Positions 91 to 7,828 of a stretch of DNA of 24,615 bases are shown here, in pieces. The DNA is taken from the IMG/VR virus record IMGVR_UViG_3300020220_003971, positions 1-24,615 of that record; one strand, given 5' to 3'. The first letter of the stretch is position 1. Each line of letters starts with the position of its first letter. The DNA comes from a virus. The notes beneath the pieces are model-generated. The model saw only the letters and a list, made by a program, of their open reading frames with translations. It did not search any database and had not been told where the DNA came from. Position numbers and translations under genes: made by a program.

Positions 91-165
91 GGGCTGGTAG
101 TGATAATGGTAGCACGGGAGCTTTGCAAGCTTTAGGTAGGAGTTCGATTCTCCTCCGGTCCACCA
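91..165 (+). tRNA. tRNA-Ala(TGC)
   Basis: A full cloverleaf can be drawn. The acceptor GGGCTGG pairs with CCGGTCC through two G:U pairs. The D arm is GTG/CAC, and the anticodon stem GGAGC/GCTTT holds the loop TTTGCAA with anticodon TGC. The T arm is AGGAG-TTCGATT-CTCCT. The gene ends in discriminator A and an encoded CCA, so the phage does not depend on host CCA addition. It is the first recognisable gene of a plus-strand RNA cluster and lies 6 nt before the next tRNA. Confidence 0.93.
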
Positions 166-171
166 ATTGAA

Positions 172-246
172 GCGGGTATGATGTAGTGGCTAGCCTGGAA
201 CCTTGCCAAGGTTTACGTGTCGGTTCGATTCCGACTACCCGCTCCA
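172..246 (+). tRNA. tRNA-Gly(GCC)
   Basis: The acceptor GCGGGTA pairs perfectly with TACCCGC, followed by T and an encoded CCA. The anticodon loop TTGCCAA gives GCC, and the T arm is GTCGG-TTCGATT-CCGAC. The D stem is weak (ATG against CCT, with one mismatch), which is the only irregular part. The acceptor, anticodon and T arms make the assignment safe. Confidence 0.92.
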
Positions 247-261
247 GTTCTTTTACATTAT

Positions 262-637
262 GGGGATGTACTGGTTTCGATTTAATAGTTGATATAAACT
301 AGGCATGTAGAGGATGATAGTTGGCCTCTTTAATCACCTGTCAAAAAAGTAACTACTGAAATAGTTGCCGAATACGACTATTCGTTTGAGGACGAAGAAG
401 TCGCAATCGCAGCCTGAATCTGCGACATCTATTATATAGATACCTAATATATGTAATAGGTGTATATTATTAGGTTAGATTGTTATTATTATTGTATATA
501 GCAATTAAAACTTACAATATAGATAATATACGGTTTGTTAATTCATAATATATTGTTTAAATTTAAAATTAACTAAGCATGTAGTCTGGTTATTGAACCT
601 ATTAAAGACAGGGGTTCAACTCCCCTCATCTCCACCA
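262..637 (+). ncRNA. ssrA: tmRNA (ssrA), one-piece form
   Basis: This is a transfer-messenger RNA, which rescues stalled ribosomes and tags the unfinished protein for proteolysis. The tRNA-like ends are clear. The 5' GGGGATG pairs with 3' CATCTCC, followed by A and encoded CCA. The T arm is AGGGG-TTCAACT-CCCCT. The segment ACTAAGCATGTAG before it matches the conserved 3' region of bacterial tmRNA. The 5' part has CTGGTTTCGA and GGCATGTAGAGG, as in other tmRNAs. The tag frame starts at GCC (367), preceded by the typical TAGT stretch, and stops at TGA (415-417). The stop lies in a hairpin formed by GTCGCA and TGCGAC. The pseudoknot region from about 430 to 565 is very AT-rich. There is no permutation or split. 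The setting between phage tRNA genes makes it phage-borne. Confidence 0.95.
367..417 (+). other. tmRNA tag-peptide reading frame
   Basis: Translation from the resume codon GCC gives AEYDYSFEDEEVAIAA and then TGA: 16 tag residues. The placement is fixed by the upstream ATAGTT, which corresponds to the conserved UAGU before the resume codon, and by the hydrophobic Ala-Ala end typical of ssrA tags. The tag is unusually acidic (six Asp/Glu) and ends in VAIAA rather than the common ALAA. The first residue could differ if the resume point is one codon away. Confidence 0.85.
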
Positions 638-642
638 ATTTA

Positions 643-731
643 GGGTAGATGGCTGAGTGGTTTAAGGCAATTGACTTGAAATCAATCGTAGTTAATAGCT
701 ACCGGGGGTTCAAATCCCTCTCTACCCGCCA
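643..731 (+). tRNA. tRNA-Ser(TGA)
   Basis: This is a class II tRNA with a long variable arm (around CGTAGTTAATAGCTACC). The acceptor GGGTAGA pairs with TCTACCC, followed by discriminator G and an encoded CCA. The anticodon stem ATTGA/TCAAT holds CTTGAAA, so the anticodon is TGA. The T loop is TTCAAAT. It ends only 5 nt before the ATG of the next protein gene, so 3' processing of the tRNA would leave that mRNA almost leaderless. Confidence 0.95.
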
Positions 732-2211: not shown

Positions 2212-3171
2212 ATGTGGTATGCTCATAAATATTCTGATATATGGTTAGTACCGAGTAAATGTGCTGTTGAATCGCGTTCTCAAGCACAAACCGATGTCAA
2301 CTTTGGAGGTTACCGGTTTAAAGTACCGGTTGTACCAGCAAATATGCTTTGCTCAATAGATGAGCGAACTAGTGATACGCTTATAAGTAACGATTATTTT
2401 TACATCTATCATAGATTTGGTGACACGCTACAATTTTGTAGAAATAAAGTAGAGCAAAAGCAAATTATATCAATAAGCCTCGGTGTCAAACGGGAAGATC
2501 ATCATTTAATTGAAACATTAAATGATTATGAAATTGTCCCTGATTATATTACAATAGATATAGCCCATGGTCATGCACCAAGTGTGGTTGCAACAATACA
2601 CAAAATTAGACATGAGTTTGGTAAAACACCATTTATTATTGCTGGAAATGTATGTACATCAGATGGTGTAAAATATTTGGAAGACGGTGGGGCTGATGCT
2701 GTTAAAGTTGGTATAGGTCAAGGTAAAGCGTGCACTACAAAATACAAAACCGGGTTTACAGTTCCAATGTTCACGTGTGTTCAAGAATGTGCAACCGCTG
2801 CAAAAGTACCATTAATTGCAGACGGTGGTATTGAACATAATGGTGATATAACTAAAGCTTTAGTTGCAGGTGCGACAATGGTAATGGCGGGTGGTATGTT
2901 TGCCTCATTGTATGATAGCCCTGCCCCTTCATTACAAACTGGTGAAAAAGAGTATTTTGGATCTGCAAGTGCAAGAACCAAGACTCATATTAGTAAGTCG
3001 TTAAAAAATATTGAAGGTACCACAAAACATATACCTGAGAATAAAATGACTTACTTAGAAAAAATGATTGAGATTCAAGAAGATCTTCAAAGTTCAATTT
3101 CATACGCAGGTGGTATTGATTGCTCTTGTTTAACTTCGGTTGACTATAGAATACACCCTGAATCTACTTAA
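2212..3171 (+). CDS. guaC: GMP reductase
   Basis: A 319-residue IMPDH/GMPR-family TIM barrel. GMP reductase uses NADPH to convert GMP to IMP and ammonia, feeding guanine nucleotides back to IMP and adenine nucleotides. It matches the short bacterial GuaC type along its length: FKVPVVPANM (36-45), YFYIYHRF, YITIDIAHGH (112-121), FIIAGNV, VKVGIGQGKACTTK with catalytic Cys174, PLIADGGI for phosphate binding, YFGSAS, and the closing DLQSSISYAGG. There is no CBS insert, which with the KTGF sequence after the catalytic loop favours GMP reductase over IMP dehydrogenase. The ATG at 2212 aligns with the usual family start. Its stop shares TTAA with the convergent gp5 gene. Its role in infection is probably purine-pool rebalancing, which is inferred. 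Confidence 0.93.
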   Translation: MWYAHKYSDIWLVPSKCAVESRSQAQTDVNFGGYRFKVPVVPANMLCSIDERTSDTLISNDYFYIYHRFGDTLQFCRNKVEQKQIISISLGVKREDHHLIETLNDYEIVPDYITIDIAHGHAPSVVATIHKIRHEFGKTPFIIAGNVCTSDGVKYLEDGGADAVKVGIGQGKACTTKYKTGFTVPMFTCVQECATAAKVPLIADGGIEHNGDITKALVAGATMVMAGGMFASLYDSPAPSLQTGEKEYFGSASARTKTHISKSLKNIEGTTKHIPENKMTYLEKMIEIQEDLQSSISYAGGIDCSCLTSVDYRIHPEST

Positions 3172-6886: not shown

Positions 6887-7828
6887 ATGGCTGAAATTGA
6901 TAATACAAATGTATCAAAAGTGTTAGGACGTATTGTAGATTACCCTCAAAACTACGATAAGAGTATCCTAGTACGTGAACCTAGACAAAGTAATAGAGTT
7001 CATTTAAACATTGCTGACGACATACCACCTTTTATAGGGTATGATGTGTGGAATGCATATGAGGTGAGTGCATTAACAATCAAAGGCTTACCTGTTGCAG
7101 GTATACTTAAAATTGTTTACAAAGCAACTAATAATTATATTGTTGAGAGTAAAAGTTTGAAGCTCTACCTTAACAGTTTTAATATGTTTAAAGTCGGTGA
7201 GACTTCTGAACAAACAATTTACTTTATTGAAAAAACTGTTGAGGCTGATCTATCTACATTGTTGGAAACAACAGTTAAGTGTAGATTTTATACTACCACT
7301 GAGGTTAATAATTTTATTAAAAATGGTTATGAAATGGATCATTGTTGGCATGCATTTCCAACAATTGAAAACCGTTTTAATTTGGATGATGTGGAAATTA
7401 CTCAATTTCAAGAAGATAAAACTTTACTAACATCTATGTTTCAGTATAAAAGTGCTGAACCTAAATCATTACCTATACAAGCATATCATAGTAGTTTACT
7501 CAAGAGTAACTGCAGAGTTACACGTCAACCTGATTGGGGTGATGTCTTTATTGAAATGCAAGCACAAGATGCAATCGATCCAATTGGTCTTGCAAAGTAT
7601 ATTGTATCATTTAGAGATGAATGCCATTTTCACGAAGAAATTTGTGAAACAATTTTCAAAAGATTGTATGATCGTTTCCAACCTTATTCATTAATGGTTA
7701 AATGTCTTTATACCAGACGTGGTGGTATTGATATTTGCCCTATACGTGCAACTAAAAATTACACGTTATTGGATAAATCACCATTTGTTGATATAGATGT
7801 ACCTTACTGTAAAACCCCTCGACAGTAA
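6887..7828 (+). CDS. queF: NADPH-dependent 7-cyano-7-deazaguanine reductase (long QueF)
   Basis: A 313-residue enzyme that reduces the nitrile of preQ0 to the amine preQ1, a queuosine precursor, using NADPH. It follows the two-domain proteobacterial QueF type. DVWNAYEVSALTIKGLP (53-69) and ESKSLKLYLNSFN (87-99, NADPH/substrate motif) lie in the first half. LLKSNCRVTRQPDWGDV has catalytic Cys209 and Asp216. SFRDECHFHEE (241-251) holds the substrate Glu/His, and YTRRGGIDICPIRA (275-288) lies near the end. All catalytic residues are present. It is about 30 residues longer than the E. coli enzyme, mainly in the middle. The ATG at 6887 was chosen because an ATG 5 nt upstream is out of frame. A TATAAT sits at 6871-6876. 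It stands alone on the plus strand between minus-strand virion genes. Its product could serve tRNA or DNA modification. Confidence 0.95.
   Translation: MAEIDNTNVSKVLGRIVDYPQNYDKSILVREPRQSNRVHLNIADDIPPFIGYDVWNAYEVSALTIKGLPVAGILKIVYKATNNYIVESKSLKLYLNSFNMFKVGETSEQTIYFIEKTVEADLSTLLETTVKCRFYTTTEVNNFIKNGYEMDHCWHAFPTIENRFNLDDVEITQFQEDKTLLTSMFQYKSAEPKSLPIQAYHSSLLKSNCRVTRQPDWGDVFIEMQAQDAIDPIGLAKYIVSFRDECHFHEEICETIFKRLYDRFQPYSLMVKCLYTRRGGIDICPIRATKNYTLLDKSPFVDIDVPYCKTPRQ

Follow-up and report, generated by a model that had tools for sequence, protein, structure and literature searches.

Together with SmpB, tmRNA frees ribosomes that have stalled, and it attaches a peptide tag. Does the phage analysed here carry a genuine tmRNA gene among its tRNA genes, and what would the RNA do during infection? 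The window (the whole stretch of viral DNA analysed, 24,615 nt) had been described in an earlier note, made from the sequence alone, as carrying a complete tmRNA gene in the tRNA cluster of a T4-like phage, and two search programs bear this out. ARAGORN calls the gene with exactly the coordinates of that note. The Rfam model RF00023 matches it over its full length (model positions 1–374 of 374) and scores 135.1 bits, the gathering score being 47 (E 4.1e-53); the covariance-model search that the note had proposed thus does not refute the gene. It is flanked by tRNA-Ala and tRNA-Gly genes on one side and a tRNA-Ser gene on the other. All conserved elements were found: four pseudoknots, H5 around the stop codon, the G3-U70 pair, the tag frame and a 3′ CCA encoded in the DNA (635–637). 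The features are collected in the table.

Features of the tmRNA locus (positions in the window)
Feature	Position	Strand	Evidence
tRNA-Ala (UGC)	91–165	+	ARAGORN and Rfam
tRNA-Gly (GCC)	172–246	+	ARAGORN and Rfam
tmRNA gene (ssrA), one-piece, 376 nt	262–637	+	ARAGORN; Rfam RF00023; covariation
H1 acceptor stem, 5′ half (partner 627–633)	262–268	+	Pairing
PK1 (GAGG/CCUC, UGAUAG/CUGUCA)	310–343	+	100% of cells paired in 11 sequences; two covarying pairs
Tag frame ACT ... TGA, TEIVAEYDYSFEDEEVAIAA and stop, 20 aa (likely start)	355–417	+	Conserved UAA; PK1 spacing
H5 (GUCGCA/UGCGAC) around stop TGA 415–417	400–426	+	Sequence; 42% of cells paired, not alignable between relatives
PK2	427–475	+	91–95% of cells paired
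PK3	479–519	+	Stem a 94%, stem b 64% of cells paired; second stem weakly supported
PK4	520–572	+	Stem a 57%, stem b 84–91% of cells paired; first stem poorly aligned
T arm, tRNA-like domain	610–626	+	96% of cells paired; 4 covarying pairs
tRNA-Ser (UGA)	643–731	+	ARAGORN and Rfam

The secondary structure was assessed by writing the base pairs from the window sequence and then counting them over 11 related phage tmRNAs (84 pairs). Across these RNAs 84% of the cells are paired, compared with 42–48% when the partners are slid. Cells changed on both sides number 118, against 42 in shuffles and 22–46 in the slid controls; relatedness is left in place by the shuffled control and kept by the slid control as well. 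Support is strong for H1, H2, PK1, PK2 and the T arm, and alignment among distant relatives is poor for H5, for stem b of PK3 and for stem a of PK4. G264-U631, which is the G3-U70 alanine identity pair, is invariant in 11 of 11 relatives. The earlier expectation that the gene should be functional is favoured by this covariation together with the conservation of the tags described below.

The tmRNA lies close to the contig end, and prophages commonly integrate into ssrA, so the gene could be an accidental pick-up of a host ssrA or the product of an assembly join, as the earlier note had cautioned. A second, independent IMG/VR record of the same phage, 79.8 kb long, carries an identical tmRNA. 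It matches the window at 99.96% identity across 19.4 kb from base 1, bases 1–731 included, and places the tmRNA at 52.9 kb, in the interior and far from the ends. This removes the worry about a contig-end artefact or a false join, and we rejected the assembly chimera. A sister phage (L098) is syntenic with the window and has the same tmRNA gene. The phage-only clade and the tags unlike those of the sampled bacteria, both described below, likewise speak against a passenger or a chimera, which we regard as extremely improbable.

The genes around the tmRNA indicate what kind of phage this is. Major capsid, prohead protease and baseplate genes of T4-like type are found in the window, and the 79.8 kb record adds sheath, DNA polymerase, helicases, terminase and ribonucleotide reductase; by its capsid, prohead protease, baseplate, sheath, polymerase and terminase genes the phage is classed as T4-like. 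With regard to the Far-T4 clade (PMC4360716), the comparison of the major capsid protein covered isolates, among which the best matches are cyanophages and SAR11 phages of T4-like type at 30–34%. DNA similarity to isolated phages is confined to short TLD, tRNA and housekeeping matches. The window also holds a gene (6887–7825) that PHROGs names GTP cyclohydrolase and Pfam names QueF (7-cyano-7-deazaguanine reductase), with a GMP reductase/IMPDH-like gene (2212–3168) and a pyrimidine-dimer glycosylase gene (1771–2196) nearby.

The tag is the most unusual part of the window tmRNA, which the earlier note had missed although it listed the tag frame as intact. ARAGORN starts it at GCC 367–369, which yields AEYDYSFEDEEVAIAA and a stop (16 aa); this reading shares its frame and its stop codon, TGA 415–417, with the one that starts at ACT 355. 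Relative to position 355, U(−5)A(−4)A(−3) is invariant in 11 of 11 aligned relatives, and the spacing from PK1 to this position is 11 nt. The corresponding spacing in E. coli tmRNA is likewise 11 nt. Throughout the group A relatives, defined below, the resume codon stands at gene position 93–96. Two points speak against ACT 355: Thr is unusual as a resume codon, and GCC 367 is preceded by AUAG, which is one form of the preferred tetramer AUAG/AUAA (PMC4236655). Because of the invariant UAA and the 11-nt spacing after PK1, we consider ACT 355–357 (Thr) the likely resume codon rather than GCC 367. One relative (L189), which branches within GCT relatives in the tree, also has ACT at the resume position, so the change to Thr probably arose twice. 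Both readings of the window tag end in AIAA, near the usual LAA.

Scanning for the PK1 pattern and searching whole records with Rfam brought up further phage tmRNAs. With PK1 as the reference point for reading, their tags define several groups. In group A, which includes the window tmRNA, the tags are about 20 aa long (AEENVVSYDFSYDEVVAIAA and similar), group B has tags of 33–45 aa (AEDNTSDLLAEAEYIFNNADEFLAGVEDYALAA), and the group C tag, AEDNFDMAMSLEEADAILAAAGFVDTEATLELV, ends in ELELV and not in LAA. The group C phages have a capsid protein 71–76% identical to that of the window. The tag of the sister phage L098 is ANKVVAEYSVSFETVAEYDYSFEDAVAEV, with the end AEV; it contains a 30-nt in-frame tandem duplication (L098 2422–2822, tag region), of which ARAGORN reads the last copy only. 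A 45-aa tag, AENYISDLLAEAEYIFNNASEFLGDVVDSVVDFFNGADEEYALAA, is encoded by the phage tmRNA in L170 (1–462).

Pooled tag pN/pS values for five groups are 0.29, 0.05, 0.04, 0.49 and 0.24 (from pairs that are not independent). In the tags of the relatives silent changes are over-represented, as expected for a translated and selected peptide, and since these tags are under purifying selection, the tmRNA is maintained and almost certainly translated. In a tree built without the tag columns, groups A, B and C and L183 form one phage clade (UFBoot 97) relative to a bacterial sample that is almost exclusively Verrucomicrobiota. The sampled Verrucomicrobiota tags are mostly 9–14 aa long with an LAA end. 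By these comparisons, the window gene belongs to a diverse, phage-only group of tmRNAs with tags of 20–45 aa that are conserved as peptides. Within the bacterial sample, two complete tmRNA genes with different tags, ANEELALAA and ADYEGLALAA, occur in a single Verrucomicrobiota genome (L278 7833–8206 and L279 538–892), and two small genomes of 0.9 Mb (L280, L281) have 20-aa tags ending in ALLG (ANYRNQPGVVAGSPAVALLG).

The earlier note had called phage copies of tmRNA uncommon, which does not describe this phage group: four of the five capsid-relative records of at least 139 kb have the gene. In L037 its neighbour is the baseplate gene that also adjoins the window tmRNA, and the order of GuaC, QueF and capsid is shared. 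No tmRNA was found in the flanks of 16 other capsid-relative loci, and its position and presence are therefore not fixed in the clade. Judged from these loci, the gene is a common yet patchy, movable accessory of the capsid relatives.

A phage smpB, for which the note had suggested a search, was not found: SmpB (PF01668) is absent from all 20 related phage records, which are fragments, and the controls were positive in 10 bacteria. Nor were ClpP, SspB or an RF1-domain protein found in 15 phage records (fragments). The RNA would thus need host partners. It presumably uses host SmpB, and the most economical reading gives it AlaRS, SmpB, EF-Tu and proteases of the host as partners. Exchange of SmpB between species can fail, as M. 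tuberculosis tmRNA is poorly supported by E. coli SmpB (PMC4236655). The phage RNA might instead be a decoy that titrates SmpB or AlaRS and thereby inhibits host trans-translation, and a molecule with the tRNA-like domain alone can inhibit tmRNA (DS6A, PMC4131195). However, a decoy needs neither the complete tag frame, H5 and stop codon present here nor the purifying selection seen on the tags of the relatives, and we find this reading very unlikely.

We conclude that the window tmRNA is real and conserved and almost certainly has a function. Probably, it is a functional phage tmRNA that rescues stalled ribosomes via host partners and adds the phage's own tag. During infection, host AlaRS would charge the phage tmRNA with alanine, and the charged RNA would bind EF-Tu and, we infer, host SmpB. 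It would then enter ribosomes that have stalled because their mRNA is broken or lacks a stop codon. Translation would switch to the tmRNA frame, with ACT 355 as the most likely first codon and TGA 415 as the stop, and the aborted protein would receive the tag Ala + TEIVAEYDYSFEDEEVAIAA. The ribosome would thereby be freed for phage protein synthesis, and this rescue may be the selected benefit. The AIAA end in the window phage probably still directs the product to a host protease.

That the phage tmRNA supplements or redirects host trans-translation, as the earlier note put it, is a reasonable inference, and redirection can be given a more specific form. As a possible cause the note had suggested mRNA decay or a limiting tRNA pool. 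By competing with host tmRNA, the phage RNA may put a phage tag on aborted products and so change what becomes of them: they might be stable, go to another protease or adaptor, or carry a peptide that is functional in itself. The RNA would then mainly redirect the tag and not simply add rescue capacity. The long, peptide-conserved phage tags next to the short LAA-ending tags of most sampled Verrucomicrobiota point this way, as do the group C end LELV and the AEV end of the sister phage, but the window's own tag ends close to LAA, and an ordinary degradation tag would also show peptide selection. We hold such a redirected tag to be unlikely. The broader idea that trans-translation has been repurposed in this phage group, with long tags such as that of group C selected for a role other than degradation by host ClpXP, seems unlikely to us; if true, the tags might stabilise or relocalise aborted products, feed another protease or act as peptides.

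The phage copy might also stand in for host tmRNA that host toxins or phage nucleases cleave in the course of infection, itself escaping through its differing mRNA-like part. The HigB toxin cuts tmRNA in the mRNA-like region (PMC3912914), the phage tag region is unlike that of the sampled bacteria, and phage tRNAs have been proposed to evade tRNA-targeting defences (PMC10264068). We rate replacement as unlikely, and ribosome rescue via host partners remains our preferred reading.

A tmRNA in a T4-like phage is not new, because S-SSM7 carries a permuted one. Our literature search for phage tmRNA as the subject of an earlier analysis returned the Melnitz paper only. As far as our searches reach, three things are new: a clade whose long tags are conserved, close relatives that have lost the LAA-like end, and a resume codon that is probably Thr. 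Viability of E. coli depends on rescue rather than on product degradation (PMC8012679), so a tag can be useful even if it lacks a degradation end. Long, selected phage tags, some without a canonical degradation end, would allow ribosome release to be tested directly against the destination of the tagged protein. If the Thr resume codon did arise twice, Ala or Gly would not be required as the first tag codon. The tag family is the part of the finding that is worth experiments.

Compared with known systems, the window gene resembles the bacterial one-piece tmRNA (RF00023) in its G3-U70 tRNA-like domain, four pseudoknots, H5 stop and CCA, and differs in being AT-rich and in its likely Thr resume codon. 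Its 20-aa tag also sets it apart from most sampled Verrucomicrobiota one-piece tmRNAs, with their 9–14 aa. When the exact phage PK1 pattern was searched among 84,980 species, the only bacteria with it were Opitutales-type Verrucomicrobiota (19 of 19 hits, L219–L237), which makes Opitutales a possible donor or host lead. We keep it as a lead only, because the tags differ (Opitutales GTHEEMPLAA, 10 aa, with a Gly resume codon, unlike the phage tags) and other phyla are scarcely represented in the tree.

tmRNA genes have been reported in 402 of 18,146 phage genomes, given as 2.3% (PMC9004378). We observed two that are unannotated. Synechococcus phage S-SSM7 (T4-like, GU071098) has a permuted cyano-type tmRNA (L241 1456–1758), inside which the annotated hypothetical ORF SSSM7_025 is probably not a gene, and Gordonia phage GodonK has a 529-nt tmRNA (L239 1003–1531; 90 bits to RF00023) overlapped by an annotated tRNA-His. 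Huge phages carry a tmRNA together with SmpB (PMC7162821), unlike the PF01668-negative records here, which may be incomplete. Like other phage tmRNAs (Melnitz, PMC9004378; mycobacteriophages and Bacillus phage G, PMC4131195; Francob), the window gene is phage-borne, as those are, often beside tRNA genes, and presumably relies on host SmpB. It is a one-piece tmRNA, unlike the permuted types of Melnitz and S-SSM7, and in contrast to the short tags with a FALAA end in Streptomyces phages such as Francob, the tags of this clade are long.
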